Assembly: GCA_023382755.1 (NCBI GenBank)
Contig: JAHDWR010000001.1
Location: 65,381 to 114,323 of the forward strand
DNA: 48,943 nucleotides
Reading direction: 5' to 3'
Origin: Dehalococcoidia bacterium
GTDB lineage: Bacteria > Chloroflexota > Dehalococcoidia > Tepidiformales > Tepidiformaceae
Positions 3,833-40,140 of this stretch are shown here, piece by piece. The notes beneath the pieces are model-generated. The model ran no database searches, was not told the DNA's origin, and was given only the letters and a program-made list of their open reading frames with translations. How positions within the stretch are numbered: position 1 is the first letter of the stretch; every line of letters begins with the position of its first letter. A program made the position numbers and the translations under genes.

Positions 3833-4606
3833 CTACCCTGCTGCCTTGATCTGCTCATCCAGGAAGCTTCGCCATTCTGCGGGAGCGGTGGGCGGCCTGG
3901 TGACGGGCTCCCCGTTGATCAGGAACGACGGCGTGCCGCGGAGCCCAAGCGCGGCGGCCTCGCGGAGCTGAGCCGTTACTTTATCGGCGGCTGCCCGTGA
4001 CGTGAGGCACGCGTCGAACGCGCCTGGTTCAATTCCTCCCTCAGACGCATATCGCTGGAGGTTCGCCACCGAGAACCTGCCAACGTTCAGCTTCTCAGCC
4101 GTGAGCTGCCCGGCATCGAGCTGGACCAGGAACAGGCGCTTGTGAAAGGCCCAGAACTCCCCCTGCTCGGCGGCGCAGGTGGCGGCGATGGCCGCGGCCC
4201 CTGACTCGTCGCCAAGGATCGGAAAGTGCTTGAACTCGAATCGCACCTTCCCTGTCAGCACGTACTCCTCGATGATCACCGGCTCGCTGAGCAGCGTGAA
4301 CCTCAGGCAGAACGGGCACTGAAAGTCTTCGAAGACCGTCAGCGTGATCCGCGCGTCGGGCTTGCCGATCGCCTGGCCGTCCACGAGGTCAGCGGGGAAC
4401 TCGAGGTCCCTGAAGGCGGCCGCGGGATCAACCGTCGCCGTCGGCGTTGCGGGATCCGAGCCCGGATCTGCCGAACCGCCCGGGTTGTCGTCGTTCCCGC
4501 AGGCCGTTAGGAGGATTCCCAGCAGCGGCGCTATCAAGAACAGGAGGCGTCCCGGTCTCAGGAAGAGGGCGCCTGGTGACGAGGCCGGTAATGCAGTCGA
4601 GATCAT
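3833..4606 (-). CDS. DsbA-like thioredoxin-fold lipoprotein (CPFC)
   Basis: 257 residues: a lipoprotein signal ending in LLTACGN, a Pro/Thr-rich linker (DPATPTATVDP), then a DsbA-like domain opening with PDARITLTVFEDFQCPFC. The CPFC redox pair and the cis-proline loop LRGTPSFLINGEP are both present, so it should oxidise or isomerise thiols outside the membrane. Start: the ATG at 4606 has GGTGAG upstream and lies clear of the preceding gene, unlike an in-frame ATG at 4627. Within the copper-assembly operon it may keep the Cys residues of SCO or oxidase subunit II in the right redox state (inference). Related DsbA-like lipoprotein at 36487. Confidence 0.88.
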   Translation of the reverse strand: MISTALPASSPGALFLRPGRLLFLIAPLLGILLTACGNDDNPGGSADPGSDPATPTATVDPAAAFRDLEFPADLVDGQAIGKPDARITLTVFEDFQCPFCLRFTLLSEPVIIEEYVLTGKVRFEFKHFPILGDESGAAAIAATCAAEQGEFWAFHKRLFLVQLDAGQLTAEKLNVGRFSVANLQRYASEGGIEPGAFDACLTSRAAADKVTAQLREAAALGLRGTPSFLINGEPVTRPPTAPAEWRSFLDEQIKAAG

Positions 4607-4614
4607 CCCCGTTC

Positions 4615-5337
4615 TCACCCCGTACACGAGCCACTGCTCTTGCTGCAGGGCTCCGGCTCAGGTTGGTCAGGGATGCGGTCCCGGCAAAGCTCCGACGGAA
4701 TGCACGCCTGGTCTGTGACCGTCGGCCACAGTGTCTCCATGACCTCTTCGTCCGACTCCGGTCCGAACGTGATCAGCACTTTCCCGAGGTCGGCGATGTC
4801 CTGGAACATCAGCGTGTCGATGCGCGTGCCGTTGACAAAGAACTTGAGCGCCTCGCCGTTGCCGGTCATGTACTTCGTGCCGTCGGGGAGCGTGAGCGAG
4901 TTGTCGGTCAGTTCGAAGCCGAGCGAAGTGAGAAATTCGTCCCAGGTCGTCTGCTCGCGGTGCACATGGACGACGGTCGACCGCGGCTTGTGGATGTGCA
5001 CGTAGGGATGCCTCTCCTCGCCCTCGTCCGACCAGAACTGGTCCTGGGCGAAGTTGAACTGCTTTCCGCGGATGAAGAGGGCGAAGTCCGTGTGCCAGTG
5101 CACCGGCTGGCGCAGCGTCCCGTCGGCTGCGAGGACGGGCGCACCGGCATCGGCCGGCACGTCGTTGTCCCCGCTCAGCCACCAACCCAAACCGAGACCA
5201 GCCAGCGCCAGGACCGCGAGCAGCAGGCCGGTGATCCATACCCTCGGCCCCAGGTACCAGTCCCACGAACCGGACTCGAAGGGATCGTCGTCAACCTCGA
5301 GGTCCGCGATACCGTGTCCCGGACGCTGCTCCGTCAC
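4615..5337 (-). CDS. Membrane-anchored protein with HWH / HIH / HVH histidine motifs, family unknown
   Basis: 240 residues: a cytoplasmic acidic N-terminus, one helix (about residues 25-45), then an external domain. The domain has a striking set of histidines: HWHTDF, YVHIHKP and VVHVH, then a glycine-rich C-terminal half with LPDGTKYMTGNGE and a Cys-containing tail (CIPSELC ... CSKSSGSC). I do not know a named family with proven function; external proteins opening with HWH and an I/VHxH strand occur in archaea and Chloroflexi. The His arrangement suggests a metal site. The GTG at 5337 overlaps the preceding stop by 4 bases (GTGA), so it belongs to the SCO/PCuAC operon and may handle copper. 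Confidence 0.7.
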   Translation of the reverse strand: MTEQRPGHGIADLEVDDDPFESGSWDWYLGPRVWITGLLLAVLALAGLGLGWWLSGDNDVPADAGAPVLAADGTLRQPVHWHTDFALFIRGKQFNFAQDQFWSDEGEERHPYVHIHKPRSTVVHVHREQTTWDEFLTSLGFELTDNSLTLPDGTKYMTGNGEALKFFVNGTRIDTLMFQDIADLGKVLITFGPESDEEVMETLWPTVTDQACIPSELCRDRIPDQPEPEPCSKSSGSCTG

Positions 5338-6308
5338 TGGGCAACTCCTTCCAGGACGGCGAGCAGCTCCTCCAGCGTGTAGGGACCCTCGAACCGGGCT
5401 ACGACCGTGCCATCCGCGTCGACCACGAACACCCACGGCTCCGAAGGCAACCCCCAGGCGATACCGGCCTCGGCGAGCTGCCGTTGGTTCCCTGGCCCGA
5501 GCTCCAGCACGCCATCGCTATCGAGCTTGTAGGGCTCCACATGGACGAAGTTGGCCTTATCCCCGAACGTCGTCGCTGCCTCTGTGACGACCTCCATCGA
5601 CGGGCCGCAGGTACGGGTCTCGCAGAACGATGGTGTGGCGAAGGCGATGACCGACGGCTTCCCGGACGCCAACGCGTCGGCGATGCTGAGCTGGTGGAAG
5701 GGCTCGTCCGGATCCGGAGAGGTGTCGATCGCCTTGAGAGGCGCGTCCGCCAGCGTGAGGCTATCGACCGAGACCGCCTTGGCGCCGATGCCAGGCGCCG
5801 ACGGCTTCTGCTTGACCTCCATGGCGAGCCGCACCTCTCCCTGCTCGTCCAGGGCGTCGCCGAGGCTGACGCCGATACCCCATTGCCCTGGTTCGTCGAA
5901 GGCGATGTTGACGTAGTAGACGCCGGTGAGCTCCGTGTCGTTGTGGGCGCCGTGGTCCTCGGTGCTGTCCACGCCGAGAGGAGCCCATGGGATCGGGCCA
6001 CTACCTTTGAGCGTCGACTGGTTGTTGGCGCCGATCTTGAAGAACCGCACGAACGCCGCCGTGTCCGTGACCGGTACCTCATCCTTGAAGATCACGAACG
6101 CTACCCGCGCTTGACCGACGGCGAGGTCGGCCGTGGAGAGGACGACCGCGTAGCCGCCCGGCCCGGGCGTCGGCAGCGCGCCGGGGTTCGTGACTTCATC
6201 CTCGCCGCCCGAGTCGCCGGAGCTGTCGCCGCCGCAGGCGGCGGCGAGCAGCGCGGTGGCGGCCACCGCCGCGAGGGCGAACAGGAGCACGCGAACTCTT
6301 GATTTCAT
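5334..6308 (-). CDS. Lipoprotein with C-terminal thioredoxin-like domain (CxxxxCGP), copy 1
   Basis: 324 residues. Signal and lipobox LLAAACGG, then an extracellular beta-rich domain (about 45-190) with GQARVAFVIFKDEVPV and YYVNIAFDEPGQWGIGVSL, then a thioredoxin-like domain with VIAFATPSFCETRTCGPSM. The cysteines (about 228 and 233) are separated by four residues, followed by GP, unlike the CxxC of thioredoxin. LPSEPWVFVVDADGTVVARF is the usual beta-strand plus cis-Pro end. A close paralogue is at 26603. A ribosome site (GAAGGAGG) lies inside the preceding gene, whose stop overlaps the ATG by 4. Role probably electron or copper transfer to exported cytochrome oxidase domains; inferred from fold and neighbours. 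Confidence 0.8.
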   Translation of the reverse strand: MKSRVRVLLFALAAVAATALLAAACGGDSSGDSGGEDEVTNPGALPTPGPGGYAVVLSTADLAVGQARVAFVIFKDEVPVTDTAAFVRFFKIGANNQSTLKGSGPIPWAPLGVDSTEDHGAHNDTELTGVYYVNIAFDEPGQWGIGVSLGDALDEQGEVRLAMEVKQKPSAPGIGAKAVSVDSLTLADAPLKAIDTSPDPDEPFHQLSIADALASGKPSVIAFATPSFCETRTCGPSMEVVTEAATTFGDKANFVHVEPYKLDSDGVLELGPGNQRQLAEAGIAWGLPSEPWVFVVDADGTVVARFEGPYTLEELLAVLEGVAQ

Positions 6309-7300
6309 GGATTGCCTCCTTCAGTGGCCGTGAGAGCGCGCACCGGGACCTCCAGCGCCAGCATCCCCGCGACCTGAAACTGGAGTGTGATGTTGACCCT
6401 GTCCCCCGGCTCGAGCACTTCGCGCAGGCCGAGGAGCATGACGTGCAGGCCACCGGGCTTCAACTCCACATTGCCACCGGCGGGGATGTCCAGACCATCG
6501 AGTGGCTGCATGCTTGCCGTGGCGCCTTCGACCCGGTTCTCGTGGATCTGGACGTCGTCGGCCGCCGGTGTACTCCCACCCACCAGCCGGTCCGCCGCCC
6601 CGAAGTCCGCGATGACCAGGTAGACCGCGGCCTCTTCGCCTTCTGATTCCCGCGCGTAGGCGCCGGACACGATGATGTTGCCGGCCCGGCCCGAGGCGGC
6701 CGCCGGGGTGGCCTCGTGACCTTCCTCGTGCTCACCGCCCGAAGACGCCTCGTGCTCGTCTCCGCCGGCGGAGACGTGGCCACCGCCGCCTGAGGCGTCG
6801 ACGAGGCTGGCGGTGGTGAGCGTTGCCACCGCCACGGCCGAAATGCCGATGACCGCGGCCGCGATGGCCGGGCGCAATGTAAGGCGTTCGAGATGAGAGA
6901 GAGCGATCGCGGTCGACCCTAGCGCGATCGCGAGCTCGAATCCGGACGCGAGCGTGTCGATGAAGGCCGCATCCTCGGTCTCGCCGGAGGCCGGGCCTAG
7001 CGGGATTCCCGCCGTTCGAGTCAGTAGCCAGAGGGCTGCGATCGCGAGGTTGCCAACCGCCCCCGTGAGGAGGATGGGGCGGGACGGCCGCGAGGCCACC
7101 ACAGCAGCCCATGCAAGCTGGAGCCAGGCGGAGGCGCCAAAAAACAGGCCGTACCCCCACCATTCCTGCCAGTGCTCGCCGAGGACGGCGAAGTGAATGA
7201 CGGCCGCCCCCACGGAGAGGAGCGCGCACCCGATGGTGGCGGTCCTACGAAAATCAACCGGCCCCAGGCTGCGATAGCCCGCCGGCAACGCCATAGTCAT
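6305..7300 (-). CDS. Fusion of a multi-helix membrane domain with a PCu(A)C copper chaperone domain
   Basis: 331 residues in two parts. Residues about 15-170 form four or five helices and match closely the stand-alone protein at 17682-18260 (both share VIHFAVLG.HW.EWWGYGLFFG and LTRT.G.P.GP). After a His-rich loop comes a PCuAC domain holding the complete copper motif: IHEN, ten residues, Met, 21 residues, then HVM, matching H-x10-M-x21-H-x-M exactly. PCuAC proteins bring Cu(I) to the CuA centre together with SCO. They are normally free periplasmic proteins, so the membrane anchor is unusual. Its ATG overlaps the SCO stop by 4 bases. Confidence 0.88.
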   Translation of the reverse strand: MTMALPAGYRSLGPVDFRRTATIGCALLSVGAAVIHFAVLGEHWQEWWGYGLFFGASAWLQLAWAAVVASRPSRPILLTGAVGNLAIAALWLLTRTAGIPLGPASGETEDAAFIDTLASGFELAIALGSTAIALSHLERLTLRPAIAAAVIGISAVAVATLTTASLVDASGGGGHVSAGGDEHEASSGGEHEEGHEATPAAASGRAGNIIVSGAYARESEGEEAAVYLVIADFGAADRLVGGSTPAADDVQIHENRVEGATASMQPLDGLDIPAGGNVELKPGGLHVMLLGLREVLEPGDRVNITLQFQVAGMLALEVPVRALTATEGGNP

Positions 7301-7968
7301 GAAGGTCGTTTCCTTTCTTCGACGAGCGCCGCCAGGTCGGCGGCGTAGTCCTCCCAGGACATGTCGGCCGGGTAGACGAGGCTCGCCTTCTGATCCTCCG
7401 GCGTGAATGCCATGACATACGCGGCGTGGTTGACCGCATAGTTGCCTCCGCCGAGGTCTGTCTTAGAGGCCGGGTTCACGCCAAGGAGGAACTGCGCGCG
7501 GTTTATCTCTTCTCTCGTCCCAGTCAGCCCGATGAACCGGCTGTCGAAGAGGTCGAGCCATTCGCGCAGCACCTCGGGCGTATCGCGCTCGGGGTCGGTC
7601 GTGATGAACACCACACTGACCTGTGCCGCCGTGGACTCGGAAAGTGAATCCAGCGCGCGGGCAACGTCGGCCATGTGGGTCGGGCAAATGTCCGGGCAAT
7701 GGGTGTAGCCCAGGTACAGGAGCGTGAGCTTACCGGCAGTCTGCTCGCGCAGCCGGAACGGCCGATTGTCTGTGTCGGTCAGCGTCACGTCCGGCATCTC
7801 GAGGGGCGGCAGCTGGCGCACTCCGCGGAATTCCGCGGTCGCGGAAAAGTCTAGCTCGACCGTTTGGTTGTCCTTGCCCAAGCCGCCGCATGCTGACGAC
7901 GCCGCGGCGCCGGCAAGCGCAAGGGCGAGCAGCAGGACGGCCACCCGGACGGATCGTTGCCCATCCAA
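7297..7968 (-). CDS. SCO1/SenC family copper chaperone lipoprotein, copy 1
   Basis: 223 residues with a lipoprotein signal (ASSACGG) and the SCO fold. The copper ligands are in place: the CPDIC pair in LGYTHCPDICPTHMADV (about residues 92-96) and the distant His in NYAVNHAAYVMAF. SCO proteins insert copper into, or reduce the cysteines of, the CuA site of cytochrome c oxidase subunit II. Followed directly by the membrane-PCuAC fusion, its functional partner. The second SCO at 17029 is about as long and also has a membrane partner directly downstream, so the pair was duplicated or acquired twice. Confidence 0.95.
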   Translation of the reverse strand: MDGQRSVRVAVLLLALALAGAAASSACGGLGKDNQTVELDFSATAEFRGVRQLPPLEMPDVTLTDTDNRPFRLREQTAGKLTLLYLGYTHCPDICPTHMADVARALDSLSESTAAQVSVVFITTDPERDTPEVLREWLDLFDSRFIGLTGTREEINRAQFLLGVNPASKTDLGGGNYAVNHAAYVMAFTPEDQKASLVYPADMSWEDYAADLAALVEERKRPS

Positions 7969-13432: not shown

Positions 13433-14158
13433 TCAGAGCACCAGGTTGAAGGCTTGAAAGTAGCGGAAGATATCGATCAGTGCCCCAGTGAAGATCAGGA
13501 TACCCATCCCGACCATGACCGTCCCGGAGGTCCGCTCGACGGCAACGTAGTGCCTCGCCAGGAACCCTCGCAACGCGGCCAGGCGCTCGAAGGCGAGGGC
13601 AGCGCCGATGTGAGGCACAGCCATACCCAGCGCGAACGCCGAGAGGAGCGCGACCCCGAGCCAGAAGTCCCCGAAGACGACCACGCTGGTGAGGATCGCT
13701 CCGAGCACCGGCCCGATGCAGGGCGTCCAGGCGATCGAATAGGTAGCGCCGACCAGGAACGACCGTGCGTAACCGGGAGTCGCGCTCTGGCCGAGGCGCA
13801 ACTCGAACGAACGCTGGAGCGCCGGCACACGCACCACCCCCATCTGGACGAGGCCGAAGGCGATGACGATCGTCCCGCCAACCTTGAACAGCTGCGAGCG
13901 CATGTCGGTGAGGGCGTAGCCAGCGAAGCTGAGCCCGGCGCCGATTGCCACGAACACCAGCGAGAAGCCGATCACGTAGACCAGCGCGTGCGTCAGGCGG
14001 ACCCGGCGCGAGGCCGAGTGGGCCTCGACCCCGGCAAGGTGGGCAAGGAAGGCGGGCGTCATCGCGAGGCAGCAGGGCGAGAGGGTGTTCACAGCGCCGG
14101 CCACGAAGGCGAGCGTGAGCCCCGGGGCCGCGCGGTCGAAGCCGAGGATCCAGTCCAT
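13433..14158 (-). CDS. ccdA: CcdA-type cytochrome c biogenesis / thiol reductant transporter
   Basis: 241 residues, six helices, with the two membrane cysteines of CcdA in the expected contexts: LSPCCLAMTPAFLAHL and SIAWTPCIGPVLGAIL. CcdA passes electrons from cytoplasmic thioredoxin to extracellular thiol proteins such as ResA/TlpA. The gene for such a protein precedes it, and the start at 14158 overlaps that gene's stop (TGATG). Together they form a thiol-reducing pair in the BlaI-controlled operon. Confidence 0.92.
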   Translation of the reverse strand: MDWILGFDRAAPGLTLAFVAGAVNTLSPCCLAMTPAFLAHLAGVEAHSASRRVRLTHALVYVIGFSLVFVAIGAGLSFAGYALTDMRSQLFKVGGTIVIAFGLVQMGVVRVPALQRSFELRLGQSATPGYARSFLVGATYSIAWTPCIGPVLGAILTSVVVFGDFWLGVALLSAFALGMAVPHIGAALAFERLAALRGFLARHYVAVERTSGTVMVGMGILIFTGALIDIFRYFQAFNLVL

Positions 14159-14880
14159 CAGCGGCAATCCTCCGGCTCGTGGCCGCCGGCCTGGATCCCC
14201 GCGACGATACAGCGCGCGACCTCAGGCTTGAGCTGGCCTATCCGATGGTCGCGGATGACCCCCTGCTCATCAAGAAAGAAGGTCTCGGGCAGGCCCCGCA
14301 GCTTGTACGAACCGGTGACCTCACCATAGGTGTCGAGCGGCGTCGGGTAGTTTACGGAGAAGTTGGTCGCAAACTCCTGGGCCACGTCAGGCGGCTCTGA
14401 GTAGTTCACCCCGATTACTTGCGCGGTGTCGCCCCACTCGGTTTGCAGCGCGACCAGGTCTGGCGTCTCCTTGCGGCAGGGGATGCACCAGGTCGCCCAG
14501 AAGTTGATGAGGACGGGCCGGCCCCGGAAGTCCTCCAACCGGATCATCTGGCCGCCGGGATCCAGGAGCTGGAAGCCCGGCGCAGGCTCGCCAACCTTCG
14601 GCCTCCCCTCTCCTGTAGACCCGAGGTCGAGCGTGGAGTACTCGCCGCCGATCGCGGGTGTGCTCGTCGCGTTGCGTTCGCGGAGCAACTGGACGAGGAC
14701 GATGCCCGCAACGACCGCGGCAATGGCGAGGACCGGGATCGCGAGGTCCACCACGGCATTCCTGCCGCTGCGCCTTCGAGCGTACCGCGGGGGGGTCGGT
14801 TCGGGCTCGTCCGTCTGGACGGTTTCGTCGTGCTCCGGATCCACCTCTGCGTTACCCCGCACCCCACGTTGCTCCACCAT
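14158..14880 (-). CDS. TlpA/ResA-type membrane-anchored thioredoxin
   Basis: 240 residues: a polar acidic N-terminus, one anchor helix (VVDLAIPVLAIAAVVAGIVLV), then an AhpC/TSA-like redoxin domain with VGEPAPGFQLLD, the active site NFWATWCIPCRKETPDL and the cis-Pro region RGLPETFFLDEQG. It should reduce apocytochrome c or copper-site cysteines using electrons from CcdA. Start at the ATG at 14880, overlapping the preceding gene by 29 bases; an ATG at 14910 is also in frame. Other TlpA-like proteins here: 22131 and 39490. Confidence 0.9.
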   Translation of the reverse strand: MVEQRGVRGNAEVDPEHDETVQTDEPEPTPPRYARRRSGRNAVVDLAIPVLAIAAVVAGIVLVQLLRERNATSTPAIGGEYSTLDLGSTGEGRPKVGEPAPGFQLLDPGGQMIRLEDFRGRPVLINFWATWCIPCRKETPDLVALQTEWGDTAQVIGVNYSEPPDVAQEFATNFSVNYPTPLDTYGEVTGSYKLRGLPETFFLDEQGVIRDHRIGQLKPEVARCIVAGIQAGGHEPEDCR

Positions 14881-17028: not shown

Positions 17029-17682
17029 ATGACTGAAAACAAGCTCACGGGGCTACTGGTCCTCTTCGCCTCTTTCTCGTTGCTGGCCCTGTCGGCCTGT
17101 ACGGGAGACGACGATGCTGGAACCGAGCTCATCCTGTCAGGCTCGTCTGAGTTCAGAGGTACCCGCCAGCTACCTCCGTTGGCGCTTCCCGATGTCACAC
17201 TCACCGACACCGATGGCCAACCCTATCGACTCCGCGAACAGGCAGCGGGGAAGGTCACGCTGCTCTACCTGGGCTACACCCATTGCCCCGACGTGTGCCC
17301 CACGCACATGGCTCAGATCGCCCGCGCCTTGGAGGAGGTGTCGCCGGAGACGGCCTCCGAGGTGCTTGTCGTCTTCGTGACGACCGATCCCGAACGCGAC
17401 ACGCCGGCTGCCCTGCGTGAGTGGCTCGATAACTTCGATCCGAGCTTCGTCGGCCTTACCGGCAATCAGGAGCAACTCGACGCCGTACACGCCGCGCTCA
17501 ACGCCAATCCTGCGGAGAAGACTCACCATGCTGGAGGCGGCTACGAGGTCGAGCACTCAGCCTACGTGTATGCGTTCACGCCCGAGCGACAAGACGCTCG
17601 GCTCGTCTATCCGTCCGCAACGACGTGGGAGGACTACGCCGCGGACTTCAGGGCTCTGATCGAGAAGGGGAGGCGACCCTGA
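17029..17682 (+). CDS. SCO1/SenC family copper chaperone lipoprotein, copy 2
   Basis: 217 residues; signal with lipobox ALSACTGD; copper motif CPDVC (about residues 86-90) in LGYTHCPDVCPTHMAQI and the distal His in VEHSAYVYAF. Strong ribosome site GGAGGAG. Much of it matches the first SCO at 7297 (both have FRG.RQLPPLE/ALPDVTLTDTD and YPA/S..WEDYAAD), so the two derive from one duplication or a shared transferred cassette. The next gene, starting on its stop codon (TGATG), is the stand-alone relative of the PCuAC-fused membrane domain. Confidence 0.95.
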   Translation: MTENKLTGLLVLFASFSLLALSACTGDDDAGTELILSGSSEFRGTRQLPPLALPDVTLTDTDGQPYRLREQAAGKVTLLYLGYTHCPDVCPTHMAQIARALEEVSPETASEVLVVFVTTDPERDTPAALREWLDNFDPSFVGLTGNQEQLDAVHAALNANPAEKTHHAGGGYEVEHSAYVYAFTPERQDARLVYPSATTWEDYAADFRALIEKGRRP

Positions 17683-18260
17683 TGACCGCCGCGATCTGGC
17701 CGACGAGCCAGCTTGCCGCTCCACTCACACTGCGCGCGGTTGTCGTGACCGCCTGTGCGCTCCTCTCGACCGGGGCGGCGGTAATTCATTTCGCGGTCCT
17801 CGGCGACCACTGGGACGAATGGTGGGGGTACGGGCTCTTCTTCGGCCTCGCCGCCTGGCTCCAACTCGCCTGGGCGGCTGCGATCGTCGCGCGCCCATCA
17901 TCGAAGCTCATGATCGCCGGAGCGGTTGGCAGCTTCGCTATCGCCGTTCTCTGGCTGGTCACCCGGACCGGCGGCGTCCCCGCCGGACCCGCGTTTGGCG
18001 AGAGAGAGACTGCTGCCTTCCCCGATGTGCTGGCGTCAGTGTTCGAGGTGCTGCTCGGGTTAAGCGCCTTCGCCGTCGTGGCCGCCCCTGCGACGAAGCT
18101 GACTCTGGGGCGCTGGGTTGGAGGTGTCGCCATCGTGGCGCTGGCAGCGGGCGTCGTGGCCCTGACCACCGTCGGCCTCATCGCCGCGTCGTCTGGTGGC
18201 GGCCACGGCGAGGAGGAAAGCACCGGGACCACTCACGAACACGGAGCAGACCAGCCCTGA
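17682..18260 (+). CDS. Multi-helix membrane protein, stand-alone partner of SCO
   Basis: 192 residues, five helices, His-rich tail (GGHGEEESTGTTHEHG). It lines up with the first half of the protein at 6305-7300 (ALLSTGAAVIHFAVLGDH, EWWGYGLFFGLAAWLQLAW), where a PCuAC domain follows; here the PCuAC part is absent and only the His-rich linker is left. Start at the ATG at 17682, overlapping the SCO stop. Being next to SCO twice, it is probably a membrane part of the copper-delivery system. I know no characterised member. The following 161 bases (18261-18421), before merB arrives from the other strand, hold nothing I recognise. Confidence 0.8.
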   Translation: MTAAIWPTSQLAAPLTLRAVVVTACALLSTGAAVIHFAVLGDHWDEWWGYGLFFGLAAWLQLAWAAAIVARPSSKLMIAGAVGSFAIAVLWLVTRTGGVPAGPAFGERETAAFPDVLASVFEVLLGLSAFAVVAAPATKLTLGRWVGGVAIVALAAGVVALTTVGLIAASSGGGHGEEESTGTTHEHGADQP

Positions 18261-18421: not shown

Positions 18422-19003
18422 TCAGGACGAGCCATCCGGCGCCCCGTTCTCTGGCGCCGGGGCAAGCAGATCGCGCGCGAAGGACCAGGCCTGGGCAACG
18501 GACATCGCGACCGTCGTCGCTTCCGGGGTGCCGTCGGCCCAGCGCTGATACTCCGCGTGCGAGGGGAAGGCGTTCAAGTAAGGGCACAGCGTATCGAACA
18601 CCGACTCGCCATCTTCGTTTCGCAGGCCGAACGACATAACCGCCGACGATGGCTCTGCGGTCACGCCGTCGGCTCCGACTTCCAGCTTCACGACCGCACC
18701 GCTGAGGGGGCTCACGGATCGCACGGACGCGGTGGCGCCTTCGAGGGCCGCCAGGAGCAGCGTATCGAGGACACAGTGTGTCCGCCGCGTCACTCCGCCC
18801 ATCGCGATTTCGTGCTCGGCGTGGGTACCGCAGCACGATTGGGAGGAATCGCAGTACATCCCCGACGGGTCGATGAAGCTCCGGTGCCTGTCAGGTGCGG
18901 CCACGTACTCGCCGAGGGTCGTGGGGGCAGCCGCCAGGTGCTGCACTGCCCGGAGCCTGTCACCGAGGGCGGCTGGGAGGGCGATGGTTGCGTAGGTCGT
19001 CAT
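18422..19003 (-). CDS. merB: Organomercurial (alkylmercury) lyase MerB
   Basis: 193 residues. The catalytic set is complete and correctly spaced: Cys77 and Asp80 (RTHCVLDTL) and Cys140 (FDTLCPYLNAF), a 63-residue interval identical to Cys96-Cys159 of the classical enzyme. MerB protonates the carbon-mercury bond of methyl- and phenylmercury and hands Hg(II) to MerA. The N-terminal region is unusual in carrying extra cysteines (MYCDSSQSCCGTH). Last gene of the mercury operon; its ATG overlaps the previous stop by 4 bases. Confidence 0.92.
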   Translation of the reverse strand: MTTYATIALPAALGDRLRAVQHLAAAPTTLGEYVAAPDRHRSFIDPSGMYCDSSQSCCGTHAEHEIAMGGVTRRTHCVLDTLLLAALEGATASVRSVSPLSGAVVKLEVGADGVTAEPSSAVMSFGLRNEDGESVFDTLCPYLNAFPSHAEYQRWADGTPEATTVAMSVAQAWSFARDLLAPAPENGAPDGSS

Positions 19004-19281
19004 AGTTTTGCCTCCAGTGTATGGTGAACTTCTTCCGCCGCCTGCGGAGCGACTCTTCTGGCTGCGGCGTTCCGGACGAGGTCAAAGCCAGGCTTCCGTG
19101 TCTGGGCCTCCTGCACGGACACCGTTATACGGGTGACGAGCTCGTAGCGGACGAATTCGGTTGTCAGCCGGGAGGTCGGGCCTCCCGGCGGATAGCAGGC
19201 GGCAGCAAGCCACCCGGGCTGGACCGCGCACTCAGCCTTGACGAGGTCGGGCAGGACTGTCGCGTAGAACGTCTGATCGAA
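19000..19281 (-). CDS. Hypothetical protein in the mercury operon
   Basis: 93 residues from the ATG at 19281, which has AAGGAGA upstream; it begins inside the last 50 bases of the MerF-like gene and ends by overlapping merB by 4 bases, so it is clearly part of the operon. Two cysteines occur (KAECAVQPG, LAAACYPPGG), the rest is soluble and helical with many Val/Thr. I do not recognise the family. Its position between MerF-like and MerB could mean a role in Hg(II) transfer, but nothing in the sequence proves it. Confidence 0.6.
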   Translation of the reverse strand, partial: FDQTFYATVLPDLVKAECAVQPGWLAAACYPPGGPTSRLTTEFVRYELVTRITVSVQEAQTRKPGFDLVRNAAARRVAPQAAEEVHHTLEAKL

Positions 19282-19531
19282 CATCGGTCTCCTTTGCGCT
19301 GCCGGGCAGATCACAGCAGCTGGTTGCGTGGCGTCGCAGGCGCAGGACTATCAGCGCCGCGGCCACCGGGACGGCCGCCACGATGGCCAGCACCCACGGC
19401 ATCCCGAGTAGTCCAAGGACACCCGAGAACGCGCCGGCAGCGATCAGCGCCGCGGCGAGCGGGATAAGCAAGCAGGGGATGCACGTCACCACGACAGCCA
19501 GCGGGACGAACCAGGATCTGTTCATGCTCAC
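19232..19531 (-). CDS. MerF/MerT-like mercury transport membrane protein
   Basis: 99 residues with two helices. A cysteine pair lies in helix 1 (VVVTCIPCLLIPL) and a vicinal pair just after helix 2 (RRHATSCCDLPG), the arrangement used by MerF and MerT to relay Hg(II) across the membrane to MerA. The pair in helix 1 is CxxC rather than CC. Located directly downstream of merA. The C-terminal 17 codons overlap the next gene. Confidence 0.78.
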   Translation of the reverse strand: MSMNRSWFVPLAVVVTCIPCLLIPLAAALIAAGAFSGVLGLLGMPWVLAIVAAVPVAAALIVLRLRRHATSCCDLPGSAKETDVRSDVLRDSPARPRQG

Positions 19532-19541
19532 GTTCTCCTCG

Positions 19542-20933
19542 TCAGCCGATGCAGCAGGTCATCACCGAAACGTCGCGGGTGAAGGCCTGAGCGGCGAGCT
19601 TGATCGCCTCCGAGTACGTCGGGAAGACGTGCACGGTGTCGATAATGTCGTAGATGCTGAGGCCGTGCCGGACAGCAAGCGCCGCCTCGTGGATGATCTC
19701 CGCGGCGTTGGTGCCACACGCATAGGCGCCGCGGATGCGATTGTCGCGGTCGACGGTCAGCTTTACCGCCCCCTGTGTATCCTTTACAGCCATCGCCTTG
19801 GGCACCTGGGTGTAGTAAACGGTCCGGCAGTTGCAGTAGCCGGTGCGCGTCATCGACTCGGATTCCGTCAGGCCGACGCCGGCCAGTTGGGGTGAGGTGA
19901 AGACTGCCCAGGGCACGGCGTCGTAATTCAGAGACTCGCGCCGGCCTTCGAGCGCGTTGGCGGCTGCCAGCGCCCCTTCTTTGGCGGCCACCGTCTCCAG
20001 AGGCATGCGTCCCGTCACGTCTCCGGCCGCCCAGAGTCCCTGTCCAGCTTCATACCAGTTGGTGGTCTCGACGAACCCCGCCCGGGTCACCCGTCCGCCG
20101 GCGTTCTCCAGGCCCACTTCCTCCGTGTTCGCCCGGATGCCTGTGGCGACCAGGATCGCGTCGGCCTCGAAGCAGTCGCTCGCCTCCGGTCCGCACACGA
20201 TGGTCTTCGACGGTCCTGGCTCGACCCGTTCGATCCGCATGCCAGTCCGGATCTCGATCCCTTCGGCTTCAAGGGCTTCTTGCAGGACGGACGCGATCTC
20301 CGGCTCGGCCTTCGGGACGATCTGCGGCAGTGCCTCGAGGACCGTCACCTGGGAGCCGAAGCGGGCGAAGACCTGGGCAAACTCCAGGCCCAGCGGCCCT
20401 CCTCCGATCACCACAAGCTTCCCGGGAGCCTCGTCGAGTTGGAGCGCTTCAACGTTCGTGAGGTAGCCGGCCTCCGCGAGGCCGGGGATCGGCGGGATGC
20501 TGGCCCGGCTGCCCGTGGCGACGAGGATGTGGCGGCCCTCGATCACCTCGCCGCCGACGTCGACCTTCCCCGGAGCAACGATGCGCCCCCGGCCCTCGCG
20601 GAAGTCCACCTGGTCGAGCGACCGGAGGACCTCCTCATAGTTCCGGTGTCGAAGGCCCGCCACGAGGGCGTCCTTCTCCTGGCGAGCGGCTTTGACCGAG
20701 AAGGCCCCATTCGGGCTTAGCGGGCGCACCGAGTCGAACACCGAGTGCCTTGTGGCCGTCAGGGCCTCGGCGATGCCGAGGAGGTGCTTGGAGGGTATGC
20801 AGCCAACGTTGACGCAGGTTCCGCCGAGCGGCAGCCCCGCGTTGATCATAAGTGCCGTGGCACCGAGGTCGTTGGCTTTGGTGGCGGCCGAGAAGGCGGC
20901 CGCCCCTCCCCCGATGATGATAAGGTCGTTCAT
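19542..20933 (-). CDS. merA: Mercuric reductase MerA
   Basis: 463 residues, a flavin disulfide reductase that reduces Hg(II) to Hg(0) with NADPH. FAD-binding GGGAAAFSAA, redox pair Cys40/Cys45 (GGTCVNVGCIPSK), NAD(P)-binding VIGGGPLGLEFAQ, and the MerA-specific vicinal cysteines Cys460/461 at the very C-terminus (MTCCIG). The N-terminal HMA domain (NmerA) is absent. A ribosome site (AGGAAAGG) precedes the ATG. It lies between the CcdA-like and MerF-like genes. Confidence 0.97.
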   Translation of the reverse strand: MNDLIIIGGGAAAFSAATKANDLGATALMINAGLPLGGTCVNVGCIPSKHLLGIAEALTATRHSVFDSVRPLSPNGAFSVKAARQEKDALVAGLRHRNYEEVLRSLDQVDFREGRGRIVAPGKVDVGGEVIEGRHILVATGSRASIPPIPGLAEAGYLTNVEALQLDEAPGKLVVIGGGPLGLEFAQVFARFGSQVTVLEALPQIVPKAEPEIASVLQEALEAEGIEIRTGMRIERVEPGPSKTIVCGPEASDCFEADAILVATGIRANTEEVGLENAGGRVTRAGFVETTNWYEAGQGLWAAGDVTGRMPLETVAAKEGALAAANALEGRRESLNYDAVPWAVFTSPQLAGVGLTESESMTRTGYCNCRTVYYTQVPKAMAVKDTQGAVKLTVDRDNRIRGAYACGTNAAEIIHEAALAVRHGLSIYDIIDTVHVFPTYSEAIKLAAQAFTRDVSVMTCCIG

Positions 20934-20949
20934 TCTGTGGTTCCTTTCC

Positions 20950-21690
20950 TCAGGCCAGGTCTCGGGCGACGTAGTACCAGTAGGCGGTCAGGTACGCTCC
21001 TCCCAGCAGGAGCACGACCGCCGTGATCTGCGTGCTGTAGCGGAAGCTGCCTCGGATCAGCCGGACGACACCCTGACGGGAGAGGGCGATGGCGACACTG
21101 ACGCTCGTCACAACAAGGCCCATGCCGAGGGCGAAGTTCAGGAACTGGACGACCGACGTCAGCCACGAGGAGCTGGCACTTGCGGCTCCGACGACGACGA
21201 GGAAGATCGGCAGCGCACAGCCGAGGGACGCGACCCCGTAGGCGACGCCGTAGAGGAATATGCCACGGACGCTACCGGTGTCCGATAACGTGACACCCGG
21301 CACGCTCAGCTCGGGGATGCCCCTGCCGAGGAGCGTCGCCAACCCCGCGGCGATGAGCAGGACACCAACCACGAGCGACGTGTACGGGAAGTACTCGGAG
21401 AGCGCCCGCCCACCGGACGAGAACGCCACCCCCAGGACGCCGAAGAGCACGACGAACCCGGCCGTCATCGCGAGCCCGGCGACGAGGGCGCGCCGCAACT
21501 GGTACGCCACTGCAGGCCCTGACGTTCCCTGAGGACCTCGCACAAAGAGTGCCGCGTAGGTGGGCAACATCACGAAGCCGCACGGGTTAATGGACGCAAG
21601 GACACCTGCGCCCATCGCGTACGCGAGTGGCAGCCGATCGACCTGCTCATAAAGGGGATCCAGCCAGGTCAGGATCGACTCGAAGCTCAC
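20950..21690 (-). CDS. CcdA/DsbD-like transmembrane electron transporter in the mercury operon
   Basis: 246 residues, six helices with the CcdA cysteine contexts VLASINPCGFVMLP and YGVASLGCALPIFLV. The family moves reducing equivalents from cytoplasmic thioredoxin to external thiol proteins. Here it is flanked by merA on one side and a lipoprotein and a TlpA-like redoxin on the other, and its ATG overlaps the preceding stop by 4 bases. It may keep external Hg-binding cysteines reduced, or itself carry Hg(II) inward as a MerT substitute; both are inference. Confidence 0.88.
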   Translation of the reverse strand: MSFESILTWLDPLYEQVDRLPLAYAMGAGVLASINPCGFVMLPTYAALFVRGPQGTSGPAVAYQLRRALVAGLAMTAGFVVLFGVLGVAFSSGGRALSEYFPYTSLVVGVLLIAAGLATLLGRGIPELSVPGVTLSDTGSVRGIFLYGVAYGVASLGCALPIFLVVVGAASASSSWLTSVVQFLNFALGMGLVVTSVSVAIALSRQGVVRLIRGSFRYSTQITAVVLLLGGAYLTAYWYYVARDLA

Positions 21691-22124
21691 TTCGGCGCTC
21701 CTCGAGTCAGCGCCACGCCGAAGACTCGGACCCGGACCGGCCCCGGATGCCGTGGGTCGGGGTTCGTCTGCATTCCCTGCTTCACTACTGCCACCAGCCT
21801 GTCGAGCGAAACGATGGCCGGGTTGTACGTGAAACGAATCTCGACTGACTCGCGGCCCGGTCTCGCCGCAGTTGCGTAACTCCAGCCACCCTGGTCTCGC
21901 TCGGGTCGGAGGGTCTCCTGGACTTCGAAGAGCACCGCACCGGCGCAGTAGTCAGCCGCTCACCTGAAGGTGGGCGAGCGGAAGATCGCAAGCCCTTCAT
22001 GCGGCACCTCCACCTCCAGCGTGACCCCGGCCGGCTCGGCGATCGGTTCGGAGCGGCTCCCCGTACACGCGGTGAACGCTACGGCTAGGAACGTGAAGGA
22101 TGCCAGCAAGAGGACGGCGCGCAT
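21687..22124 (-). pseudogene. HMA-like mercury-binding lipoprotein gene split by an in-frame TGA
   Basis: Codons 1-54 (22124-21963) encode a lipoprotein start (lipobox AFTACTGS) and a first strand VTLEVEVP. A TGA follows at 21962-21960. Without any frame change the reading continues AADYCAGAVLFEVQETL, SYATA, SVEIRFTYNP, SLDRLVAVVKQGM and VRVRVF, the strand-helix pattern of an HMA (MerP-like) ferredoxin fold with one of the two usual cysteines. The second half has no ribosome site of its own (only a GTG at 21935), and its stop overlaps the CcdA-like ATG. So this is one gene interrupted by a stop: a nonsense mutation, a sequencing error or recoding. The short first part alone would be a 54-residue lipoprotein. 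Confidence 0.6.
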
Positions 22125-22130
22125 GCAGGA

Positions 22131-22742
22131 TCACCTCGCTTCGCCCAGGGCGCCGGCAAGAACCTCACGAAGCTCGTCGTTCGATGGCCGCACGCTCTGA
22201 TGCAGTTGGTTGCCCGCCGAGTCCAGGACGATCACGGTGTCGAGGTACCGTAATTCGAAGGTGGACGCGAAAGCCCCGTCGCTGTCGAAGGCCCACAGGT
22301 ACTCCGGGTTGCCGGCAGCTTCGCGGAAGCGCTCGAGGGTCTTCTCCGTTTCACCGGGGTCCACCGAGACGGCGATGACGTTGACGCGGTCGCCGAACTC
22401 TGCGTGCACTGCCTTGAGGTCTCGAGCGGGCCCAATACATGTCGGACACCAGCCCGCCATCGCCAGCACCACGGTCGGCTTGCCCGGCTGCGCGAGGTCC
22501 ACTGATCCCCCGCCACTCCAGCTGGCGAGCTTGACCAGCGCACCTCCGGCGGTCCCCACGGACTGCCCGTCGCTGACTCCGGTGCCTCCCGGAGCCGCCG
22601 TGGTGCTGTCGTCCGCGGCATAGCCAGCCACGACCACCCCGATGAGTGCGGCCGAGGCGAGCATCGCCCCAATCGCGACCAAGAGGCGGCGCTGGATTCG
22701 GCGGCGCGACGGCACGGTTTTGGCGCGCTTCGACGGCCTCAT
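22131..22742 (-). CDS. TlpA-like redoxin, membrane anchored, first gene of the mercury operon
   Basis: 203 residues: a basic N-terminus, one helix (LLVAIGAMLASAALIGVVVAG), then a thioredoxin-like domain with VLAMAGWCPTCIGPARDL. The CPTC pair and DTVIVLDSAGNQ are in the right places. The ATG at 22742 is preferred to one at 22805. First gene after the MerR promoter, with a leader of about 125 bases, and 6 bases ahead of the lipoprotein gene. Together with the CcdA-like protein it makes a thiol relay at the cell surface, not part of the classical mer set. Confidence 0.85.
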   Translation of the reverse strand: MRPSKRAKTVPSRRRIQRRLLVAIGAMLASAALIGVVVAGYAADDSTTAAPGGTGVSDGQSVGTAGGALVKLASWSGGGSVDLAQPGKPTVVLAMAGWCPTCIGPARDLKAVHAEFGDRVNVIAVSVDPGETEKTLERFREAAGNPEYLWAFDSDGAFASTFELRYLDTVIVLDSAGNQLHQSVRPSNDELREVLAGALGEAR

Positions 22743-22875
22743 GACCAACCTCCTTGCTCTCGTGCAACGTGCCGACCCGGGGGCGCTTCTGCTGGGCCGG
22801 CACAAACGGAACCGGTTCGCCCAGGGCGCAAGGCCGCGCTCGCGTCGGCGATCGCGTTCTGCTTCACTGACTATG

Positions 22876-22906
22876 AGGCTAGGGGTTGGAGCAACTCCAA
22901 TGTCAA
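22876..22906 (-). promoter_or_regulatory. MerR-type promoter/operator of the mercury operon
   Basis: Minus strand -35 TTGACA (22906-22901), 19-base spacer, -10 TAGCCT (22881-22876). The spacer contains a perfect dyad TTGGAG-TTG-CTCCAA (22900-22886). This is the classical mercury operator layout, in which MerR twists the DNA to correct the long spacer when Hg(II) is bound. It directs the TlpA-to-merB operon; the divergent small membrane protein and merR begin just right of it at 22931. Confidence 0.92.
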
Positions 22907-22930: not shown

Positions 22931-23155
22931 ATGGACGGTCTTACCGTCTTCGGAGCGGTGGCGGTCCCGGCGATGCTCGTGTTCTATGCGCTCGAACGAG
23001 AGGCGCGGGTGTTCGTGGTCGCCTTCACCGGCGCCCGTGTTGCGTCATCGGCTTACGGGTTCCTCGCGGGCACCTGGCCGTTCGGTGTGATAGAGGCTGT
23101 CTGGGCGGGCGTAGCGGCGAGGCGCTGGGCCACAACACAGGCTGGCGCGCCATGA
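22931..23155 (+). CDS. Small membrane protein co-transcribed with merR
   Basis: 74 residues, two or three helices (GAVAVPAMLVFYALE, FVVAFTGARVASSAYGFLAG, VIEAVWAGVAARRW). A ribosome site (GGGAGGG) precedes the ATG and its stop overlaps the merR start by 4 bases, so the two form one unit. I recognise no characterised family, though short proteins of this shape (integral, ending in an amphipathic W..VAARRW) are common in high-GC bacteria. No cysteines, so it is unlikely to carry mercury. Confidence 0.7.
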   Translation: MDGLTVFGAVAVPAMLVFYALEREARVFVVAFTGARVASSAYGFLAGTWPFGVIEAVWAGVAARRWATTQAGAP

Positions 23156-37795: not shown

Positions 37796-39490
37796 TTACT
37801 CCTGGCGGTCCTCGGGCCGCACGGCATCAGGCGAACCCAACTCCCCACCCATCAGCCGCAGCTCACGGCCAAGCCGCGTCGTCCGCTCCGCTATCCCGGC
37901 GAGGAAGGTGCGGTCGCGCGTTACCTTCACCCAGATCCGCCGGCGAGGAACGTAGAACGTGATCCCCAGCCCGACCATCGCCATGGCGACGGCCACCCAG
38001 ATGAAGAAGTCTCCGGGGTCCCGGCGGACATCGAGCCCGGAAGCTTCAACTTGCCGGTCGAAGCGGTACGTATACCCGTTCGTCGCCGTGTACTCCTCGC
38101 CTGTCGCGAGTTCGACGTTCTCGTCCTCAATGCCGTTTAGGAACAACGACGTGCCGCCTGGTGACTGAATCATTTGCACGATGGCGCCATCGGGTGCTCC
38201 CGGCATGTCGTCGATCCGAATCGCGGGGACAGTGGTAGCGCCGGCGTAGCGCAGCGTTCCGTTGCCTACGGTCACTTCCTCCGTGGGCTTGAGATCTCTG
38301 GGCGCGAGATCTGGGCCAGACACGACAACTCGCAAGTCACCCTCGAGGACCCGCCAACCGATGAGATAGTCGCCTCGTTCCGTTTCGGGACTGTTGGCGC
38401 GCGGCAACGTCTCGACCACCGAGAGGGCGATGTCGTCCGCTCTTTGTTCGGTCGTGCCTCCGTCGGTCGCCAGCTGGGGCACAGGCCCGTCGTACTGGAC
38501 CCGCCCGTCGCGGTCGGTGAACACCAGGTACGGGACGCTGGTCGTCTGGCTGTCGAAGTCAAGGGGCTGGTCGAATGCGATCCGTCCGTCGGGCGCGACG
38601 ATGCGGATCTTCGCGAGGTCGTTAAACCACGCTGCCTGGTGGATGCGATAGCCAAACGCCTGGCACGGGTCGTTGACCGTCGTCTTGCACGAGATCACCT
38701 CAGTACCGCGCCGCACTTCGAGCATGCTGTAGTAATCGACGATGTTCCCCTCGGCGTCGAGGCCGCGGTAGGCGTCCAGCACCTCGATGAACAGCTGGCT
38801 GGGCCCGGGACGATCGAAGACCGGCGCAGCGCCCGCCGTTTCCGCGATGACCATGACCCGCGCAAACCCGCCAAAGACAGTGAGGACTCCACCTATGAGG
38901 AGCATGAGCAGGGCCAGGTGGCTGAGGAAGGTGCCGTAGGTCGTCCATGGGTATCGCTCCGCGAAGAGGTACACCGCCTCGGCGTCCATTCTCGTGCGTC
39001 GCACGGAGTAGCGACGCTTGCGCAGGGCCGACTCCACAGCTTCCGCCCCGCCCGGATGTGAGAAGTCGGCGCGATGGTGGGCTGTCGCGAAGTAGCGGTC
39101 GGGGACAATCGTCTGCGGGTGATGTACCGCCCGGGCGGTTGGCCGAAAACGGCTCACGGTACAAACCGTGACCGCCACGATGATCAGGCCCCAGAGCGCA
39201 TAGAACCAGGGCGCGTGGAAGATGTCGAACAGGTACCAGCGGTCCATGACGTCGGTGAACAGCCCGAACTGCTCCCGCTGCAGCTCCAGCCAGGCGCTGC
39301 GGGCCGCCGGATTGGCGCGCATCGGAATCGGCACTTGCGGAAGCAGCACTCCGAGCAGGCACGCGAGCCCTGCGATGCCGACCAGGAGCAGGGCGAACTT
39401 CACGTTGCACAGCAACGTCCACACAAGGCGGAGCGGGTCGAATCGGCGACCTTGCAACCCCGGTTCAGCGGCGCCTGCGCGGGTAGCCAC
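37796..39490 (-). CDS. resB: System II cytochrome c biogenesis protein ResB
   Basis: 564 residues: three N-terminal helices (VKFALLLVGIAGLACLLGVLLPQ; FHAPWFYALWGLIIVAVTVC), a large external domain, and a last helix (WVAVAMAMVGLGITFYV). It forms the haem-handling synthetase with CcsA. The GTG start shares one base with the stop of the TlpA gene upstream, so the pair is coupled. Length fits the family (500-600). Confidence 0.92.
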   Translation of the reverse strand: MATRAGAAEPGLQGRRFDPLRLVWTLLCNVKFALLLVGIAGLACLLGVLLPQVPIPMRANPAARSAWLELQREQFGLFTDVMDRWYLFDIFHAPWFYALWGLIIVAVTVCTVSRFRPTARAVHHPQTIVPDRYFATAHHRADFSHPGGAEAVESALRKRRYSVRRTRMDAEAVYLFAERYPWTTYGTFLSHLALLMLLIGGVLTVFGGFARVMVIAETAGAAPVFDRPGPSQLFIEVLDAYRGLDAEGNIVDYYSMLEVRRGTEVISCKTTVNDPCQAFGYRIHQAAWFNDLAKIRIVAPDGRIAFDQPLDFDSQTTSVPYLVFTDRDGRVQYDGPVPQLATDGGTTEQRADDIALSVVETLPRANSPETERGDYLIGWRVLEGDLRVVVSGPDLAPRDLKPTEEVTVGNGTLRYAGATTVPAIRIDDMPGAPDGAIVQMIQSPGGTSLFLNGIEDENVELATGEEYTATNGYTYRFDRQVEASGLDVRRDPGDFFIWVAVAMAMVGLGITFYVPRRRIWVKVTRDRTFLAGIAERTTRLGRELRLMGGELGSPDAVRPEDRQE

Positions 39491-40140
39491 TACTCCAGGT
39501 ACCCCGCTTCGAGAGCCAAGAGGTCTTCCTCATCGATGCGCCCGATCCGCAGCTCGCGAATCACACCGGTCGGATCGACCAGCATGGAGACCGGCAACCC
39601 TCGTCCGACGCGGTAGGCTGTTGACACCTCACCTGACAGGTCGAGCGCGATCGGGTACGTCAACTGGTACTCCTCTACGAACTCGGCTGCCGTATCCCTC
39701 GATTCCTGCTGGTTCACGCCCAGGACCACAAGCGTGTCAGGCCTTCGTGCCTGGAGCCGCTGCAGATGCGGCGTCTCTTGTCTGCAGGGGCCGCACCAAC
39801 TGGCCCAGAAGTTAAGGAGCACCCACTTTCCGCGGTACGCAGATAGCCGCTCTTCGCTTCCATCAGTCGAAGCGAGCAAGAAGTCCGGGGCCACGCGGCC
39901 CACCTCGGACGAAGGAGGCCGATCCGTAGGATTGAGATCGGCGGGCAGTGCGATGACGCCGTAGCCGTCGCTGGCCAGGCTGCTGTCGTCTTCACGGAAC
40001 TGGAACCACCAGATTGCGACTCCGACCGTGAGGATAATCAGGGCCGCAACGCCAAGCGTGGAGCTCGCTCCGCTGTACTCACGGCGCCGTTGGGGGCGCT
40101 CATCGACGTCGCCCGAAGGATCGTCCAGATTCACCGCCAC
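39490..40140 (-). CDS. resA: TlpA/ResA-type membrane-anchored thioredoxin
   Basis: 216 residues: a polar N-terminus, one helix (TLGVAALIILTVGVAIWWF), then the redoxin domain: VAPDFLLASTDG, LNFWASWCGPCRQETPHL and the cis-Pro loop GRGLPVSMLVDPTG. With ResB downstream it most likely reduces apocytochrome c haem-binding cysteines, the role of ResA. GTG start (weak ribosome site). Third TlpA-like protein in the window. Confidence 0.9.
   Translation of the reverse strand: MAVNLDDPSGDVDERPQRRREYSGASSTLGVAALIILTVGVAIWWFQFREDDSSLASDGYGVIALPADLNPTDRPPSSEVGRVAPDFLLASTDGSEERLSAYRGKWVLLNFWASWCGPCRQETPHLQRLQARRPDTLVVLGVNQQESRDTAAEFVEEYQLTYPIALDLSGEVSTAYRVGRGLPVSMLVDPTGVIRELRIGRIDEEDLLALEAGYLE

Follow-up and report, generated by a model that had tools for sequence, protein, structure and literature searches.

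What do a transmembrane thiol carrier and a thioredoxin-like protein do in a mercury-resistance operon? The question is raised by a mer operon on the minus strand of a 48,943-nucleotide stretch of a Dehalococcoidia genome (the window), in which genes for a TlpA-like protein, an HMA/MerP-like lipoprotein and a CcdA-like protein stand between a MerR-type promoter and merA. We coined the name merPU for the lipoprotein gene. It carries an in-frame TGA where its homologs encode Cys, and the product is a probable selenocysteine (Sec) protein. Our preferred reading, which we hold at even confidence, is that a CcdA/TlpA relay keeps this Sec/Cys lipoprotein reduced and that the lipoprotein captures Hg(II) for the mercuric reductase MerA.

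Results

The operon runs from 22742 to 18422 on the minus strand in the order tlpA, HMA-like lipoprotein gene, ccdA, merA, small four-Cys gene, unknown gene and merB. The features of the locus were as follows.

22876-22906, minus: MerR-type promoter, with -35 TTGACA (22901-22906), a 19-bp spacer and -10 TAGCCT (22876-22881)
22886-22900, minus: promoter dyad TTGGAG-TTG-CTCCAA, inside the 19-bp spacer
22131-22742, minus: tlpA, membrane-anchored thioredoxin-like protein (PF08534, WCPTC, transmembrane segment)
21687-22124, minus: merPU, HMA/MerP-like lipoprotein, probable selenoprotein (lipobox C20; U55, encoded by TGA; C60)
21960-21962, minus: TGA codon 55 of merPU, probably Sec, first ligand of a U-x4-C loop (R-U-AADY-C-A)
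20950-21690, minus: ccdA, transmembrane thiol carrier of a mer-linked subtype, with a GTG start overlapping the merPU stop (C37, C158)
19542-20933, minus: merA, mercuric reductase (TIGR02053, over cut-off)
19232-19525, minus: small membrane protein, Cys pairs CIPC and CC, MerF-like in layout only, no family match
19000-19284, minus: unknown 94-residue protein with two Cys, no family over cut-off
18422-19003, minus: merB, organomercurial lyase (PF03243; C-x-x-D and second Cys motifs)
22931-23155, plus: small hydrophobic open reading frame (ORF) overlapping merR, with similar ORFs in loci L093 (80% identical), L030, L039 and L081
23152-23580, plus: divergent MerR-family regulator (PF13411, 64.2 bits)

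The genes from tlpA to merB very likely form one transcription unit, because their junctions are overlaps (GTGA for merPU/ccdA, ATGA for the unknown gene and merB, and another for the MerF-like and unknown genes) or short gaps, that between tlpA and merPU being 6 nt. An earlier note on this DNA had described the same gene order and strand, which the ORF layout and family scores bore out, and a MerR promoter, which was found with its -35 and -10 hexamers and a dyad in the 19-bp spacer. It had also proposed one transcription unit joined by ATGA overlaps; the unit stands as very likely, but on the mixture of junctions just given.

The merPU frame (22124 to 21687) holds the TGA at codon 55 and is open on both sides of it. 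Around the TGA it reads ...SPTFR-TGA-AADYCAGAVLFEV..., and it ends in the GTGA overlap with ccdA. The earlier note had called the product an HMA-like lipoprotein; the HMA-like description agrees with the profile matches given below, but the TGA within the frame had gone unnoticed. Third-position GC was 0.85 before the TGA and 0.74 after it, with 0.72-0.84 in the neighbouring genes, and thus resembles that of coding sequence on either side. In 10 of the 10 homologs kept (L105 and L129-L137, all of the same class) the column of the TGA is Cys, within the motif S-x-x-[LF]-R-C-x4-C-A, and R-[C/U]-x4-C-A is invariant across MerPU and the homologs. The genome also encodes SelA (510 bits, cut-off 268), SelB (301 bits, cut-off 242), SelD (362 bits, cut-off 125) and a tRNA-Sec with anticodon TCA (69 bits). 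Its selD gene (L114) itself has an in-frame TGA (TTCGG-TGA-ASKAG), at the usual Sec/Cys site of SelD. SelA was present in 26 of the 38 genomes of the family, and the Sec trait is therefore native. The formate dehydrogenase genes of the genome had no in-frame TGA, so that SelD is the only Sec control. MerPU is thus a probable selenoprotein, because the homologs have Cys at this column, SelA, SelB, tRNA-Sec and SelD are all present, and SelD has a TGA of its own; from the sequence, decoding of codon 55 as Sec is highly probable.

A nonsense mutation or an assembly error would also put a TGA in the frame, and the lipoprotein would then be broken, with ccdA and tlpA working without MerPU. The TGA form occurs in one genome only, a draft of 380 contigs, and no significant hairpin follows the TGA. 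However, the TGA sits on one of the two loop-Cys columns, while 11 other merPU codons are one step from TGA (two of them Cys codons, one being that of the lipobox). The remaining frame is intact up to the ccdA overlap, and the complete Sec machinery is accompanied by a Sec-type SelD. We therefore regard a broken merPU as very improbable.

The domain of MerPU was compared with known metal-binding folds. Nearly all the top PDB matches of profile A2 were solved HMA domains (E 1e-4 for the best to 0.25), among them MerP 1osd at E 0.25. In an hhalign comparison with six HMA domains, mostly MerA N-termini (E 2.3e-4, probability 44%), the U/C and the second Cys aligned with the Cys pair of CxxC, given an insertion of two residues. 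The MerPU homologs reached CopZ and MerP models weakly (E about 3e-4), under every MerP cut-off, and profile A2 also matched an ordinary CxxC CopZ-like protein. MerPU shares with MerP/HMA proteins an apparently similar metal-site helix, two ligands that align with CxxC, and an encoding gene together with merA. Unlike MerP, whose motif is GMTCxxC, it has a U/C-x4-C loop, is a lipoprotein and has TlpA-fused relatives. The domain looks like a divergent HMA/MerP-like one with a probable Sec-x4-Cys loop, and MerPU was not filed as MerP because the CxxC motif is absent.

The homologs were collected by several searches. A profile search of 393 genomes of the class listed 12, including the genome itself; G009, a 32-residue stretch within another frame, was dropped as chance, and 10 were kept. 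With MerPU as the query, only its own genome was found among 148 relatives. The same query in 400 genomes of the phylum (E<=0.01) listed 10 genomes, in which, besides its own, only G105 was judged a relative and eight matches were judged by eye to be chance. Profile A2 in 400 genomes found its own genome, G087, G105, G119 and G057, the last being the CopZ-like protein mentioned above, which was rejected as a MerPU relative. The genome_contigs and viral_contigs sets gave no relative when searched with MerPU alone; with profile A1, viral_contigs gave no match and genome_contigs a single one (L116), judged chance. Both matches of a tblastn search of plasmids with MerPU were also chance.

In all 10 homologs kept, a TlpA protein carries the MerPU-like domain as its C-terminal portion, in the same TlpA-then-domain order as the separate neighbours tlpA and merPU of the window. 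This fusion supports TlpA as the redox partner of MerPU. The fusions share the CxxxxC-type domain with the window; unlike the window's pair, they are single polypeptides with Cys for Sec, mostly away from merA. The family to which these fusions belong, TlpA with an HMA-like CxxxxC domain at its C-terminus that ends in DPLY, extends over 10 or more genomes of the class. The fusion of L133 lies on the same strand as merA, 3 kb downstream of it and behind a classic CcdA and another TlpA; this merA is 51% identical to that of the window.

The same fusions bear on another explanation, in which the relay performs general extracytoplasmic thiol repair in mercury stress and MerPU is a Sec redox enzyme rather than a metal carrier. 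Ten of 10 homologs are TlpA fusions and nine are not near merA, and Sec is commonly found in redox catalysis. The HMA-type similarity, with both ligands aligned, and the position of merPU behind a MerR-type promoter together with merA and merB argue for a metal-binding role instead, and we consider the redox-enzyme explanation very unlikely.

The two relay proteins have Cys as redox pairs only, as expected for carriers. TlpA scored 43.6 bits against PF08534, above the gathering score; it has the motif WCPTC, and its only Cys are C99 and C102. CcdA is divergent (DsbD_TM, PF02683, 19.9 bits, below the gathering score of 27.1) and shared 33-39% identity with plasmid proteins that carry the annotation CcdA. 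Its only Cys, C37 and C158, lie one in each of two CcdA-like membrane motifs (NPCG...LP and SLGCALPIF). SL[SG]C[TA]LPxF was present in 14 of 14 mer-linked CcdA homologs (10 from Chloroflexota and four plasmid ORFs, counted apart from the tblastn matches L048, L056 and L083) and NPC[GA] in 12; in the other two the first motif was absent from the ORF as read, that of L030 being ended by the contig. The two classic CcdA proteins read had SPC and W[ST]PCIGP. By these motifs, the operon CcdA is a member of the mer-linked subtype.

A separate classic CcdA/TlpA pair lies at 13448-14781 (minus), and a further TlpA-like gene stands beside a large membrane protein gene at 37796-40140 (minus). The large gene (37796-39490), named by eye, is probably one for cytochrome c biogenesis. 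The operon pair is therefore extra to the window's other relay genes. The classic pair has the same order as in L093 (1050-2473) and adjoins a BlaI-like regulator, also named by eye.

The operon is a mer operon by its merA over cut-off, the MerR-type promoter ahead and the divergent MerR-family regulator. MerA reached 484.8 bits with TIGR02053, whose cut-off is 454.45; it has the GGTCVNVGC motif and a C-terminal CC, and no N-terminal HMA domain. MerB scored 87.6 bits against PF03243 (cut-off 27), far below the NCBIfam MerB cut-offs, and has the catalytic motifs. The regulator passed the Pfam cut-off for the MerR family but did not reach that of any metal-specific equivalog in NCBIfam, those for MerR and CueR among them. 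In Pfam and NCBIfam scans no operon protein matched merT or merP, and the small four-Cys membrane protein matched no family. The earlier name MerF-like for the latter agrees with its Cys pairs (CIPC, CC) and hydropathy, but not with any family match. None of the other 79 loci held a homolog of the unknown 94-residue protein (E<=1e-3).

The occurrence of the pair at other merA loci of Chloroflexota was also investigated. A CcdA match was present at 14 of 78 loci (the window's own locus and L105 excluded), and 13 of these 14 had a nearby TlpA match. The CcdA of L093 is of the classic type; without L093, TlpA and CcdA occur together at 12 of 78 loci. Chance neighbourhood of ccdA and merA was rejected, with about 0.07 loci expected against 13 of 78 seen (L093 left out), by a rough estimate that ignores kinship and uses round inputs (a genome of 3.7 Mb and a locus of 13.4 kb, with 79 loci and 52 CcdA hits in 201 genomes).

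Among plasmids, mer genes are accompanied by both TlpA and CcdA in pSK62, pHKS3860, p18809-P04, Deinococcus pDrdI and those of Rhodococcus ruber and Rhodococcus WAY2. On a Paenibacillus plasmid CcdA precedes merA and no TlpA is annotated; the merA of Nocardioides pNOCA01 is divergent and some 3 kb distant. Plasmid records with a CcdA match numbered 45; 13 were inspected, and mer genes were close in eight and absent in four, with one record unannotated. The mer locus of pDrdI (L112) has a CopZ-type gene, merB, CcdA between two TlpA genes, and then a gene annotated lpdA. The collection of genomes with the pair at merA, which the earlier note had proposed, showed it to recur in Chloroflexota and on plasmids. 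The same note had taken CcdA and TlpA to set this operon apart from known ones; this part fell, since Staphylococcus aureus merR-TlpA-CcdA-merT-merA-merB plasmids, Deinococcus and Rhodococcus already have the pair.

The S. aureus plasmids pSK62, pHKS3860 and p18809-P04, of the pI258 type, resemble the window in MerR control, TlpA followed by CcdA, and merA. In these plasmids TlpA and CcdA overlap by 4 nt, and merB is present in two of the three. Unlike the window, they have no annotated HMA/Sec lipoprotein and, in two of three, a predicted merT; the MerA of L109, from this set, carries an N-terminal HMA domain, whereas the window MerA has none.

These comparisons bear on a further possibility, that CcdA is an Hg(II) importer standing in for MerT, with TlpA and MerPU as outside mercury shuttles, so that mercury rather than electrons moves along the Cys pairs. 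The lack of a merT/merP match in the operon and the distinctive Cys motifs of mer-linked CcdA are consistent with it, as are actinomycete TrxA- and CcdA-type proteins that a table in a 2025 review (PMC12195606) labels 'mercury transporter' or 'mercury resistance operon ORF3'. However, the S. aureus operons have CcdA together with a predicted merT, the window has a further four-Cys membrane protein, and CcdA relatives also stand with TlpA, or with a different redoxin, at sites apart from mer genes. We consider an importer role unlikely.

The locus L093 belongs to a second genus of the family and carries MerR, the small ORF, merA (82% identical) and merB (56%). Its promoter, TTGACC-19 bp-TAGCGT, stands directly before merA and merB directly behind it, with no tlpA, merPU or ccdA between promoter and merA. 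Because L093 has a like promoter directly before merA, tlpA-merPU-ccdA seems to be a cassette that was added. Two histories would give this difference: loss of the genes from L093 or, in the window lineage, a gain of three genes behind the promoter, ahead of merA, and of two more that now separate merA from merB.

Two other arrangements were noted. In L031 a lipoprotein ending in VGCGCPLPP (3989-4654, minus) adjoins MerF-like, TlpA and CcdA genes near merA and is possibly another surface thiol protein. The window twice has a gene for an SCO-like lipoprotein with one for a membrane protein (AVIHFAVLG) behind it, at 17029-18260 (plus) and 6305-7968 (minus); one copy adjoins merB, as does the pair of L093.

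Discussion

In our preferred reading, MerPU would be an outside-facing lipoprotein with U55 as its first metal ligand and C60 as its second. Selenolates bind Hg(II) more tightly than thiolates and exchange it faster. Exposed on the cell's outside, a Sec/Cys pair would become oxidised, and an electron supply would therefore be needed. Electrons would pass from cytosolic thioredoxin through C37/C158 of CcdA to C99/C102 of TlpA, which would reduce the Se-S bond formed by U55 and C60. The reduced Se/S pair would capture Hg(II) and hand it inward via membrane thiols, those of the small CIPC/CC protein and perhaps CcdA, to MerA; MerB would free Hg(II) from organomercurials. The thiol relay for a surface metal-binding protein suggested in the earlier note fits this picture, with the homologous domains fused to TlpA and a pair extra to the classic set.

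Several observations weigh against this reading. Hairpins can be drawn after the TGA, but none was significant (folding z 0.68; 152 of 200 shuffles fold as well); the TGA of the genome's own selD, folded likewise, gave no sharper picture, and bacterial SECIS (selenocysteine insertion sequence) elements are short and loose. There was no second Sec-containing homolog in the sampled genomes, so that the Sec form rests on one gene. MerPU itself had no direct hidden Markov model match to the HMA family or the NCBIfam MerP models, and its single-sequence structure model was unusable (pLDDT 44). L104 has ccdA near merA without a TlpA match. Of the 10 Cys homologs, nine have no merA within the stretches read (5-15 kb, some ended by the contig), and the general role of the domain need not be mercury.

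Sec in mercury transport proteins is already published (PMC2398784, PMC9312934 and PMC13188914). As in MerPU, Sec is predicted there in a mercury or metal transport protein. The known types are a putative mercuric transport protein (MerT-type, C/SxxU), NF041115 (UxxU) and NF045683 (MerT/CopZ-like); their listed motifs differ from U-x4-C, and MerPU matched neither NF041115 nor NF045683. A 'Mercuric transport protein MerP' with Sec is listed from marine reads in a GOS table that gives no motif (PMC2398784), and 'UxxxxC' is absent from PMC13188914. The diversity of mer is treated in PMC8261052. No study of a CcdA/TlpA relay in a mer operon was found among the papers listed by searches of a literature collection whose coverage leaves out most subscription journals.

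Relative to known mer operons with TlpA and CcdA, the most unusual element is the probable Sec in a surface HMA-like lipoprotein; the pair itself is known. A further step, which we put forward only tentatively, is selenium-dependent mercury capture, in which a Sec metallochaperone has its own transmembrane electron supply and the UGA also gates the operon. Without selenium, translation would end at codon 55 and the GTGA-coupled ccdA would be poorly made; selenium shortage could thus lower ccdA translation because ccdA overlaps the merPU stop. We know of no earlier operon in which a Sec metal ligand comes with a CcdA-TlpA reductase of its own and, if true, this would be the first.

With MerPU a new family of Sec proteins is probable, one where Sec would act at a metal site and not in an enzyme. 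CcdA and TlpA occur in the mer operons of several phyla, and a possible reason is the supply of electrons to an outside mercury-binding thiol or selenol. If the Sec reading is true, selenium supply would be linked to mercury resistance in this organism.

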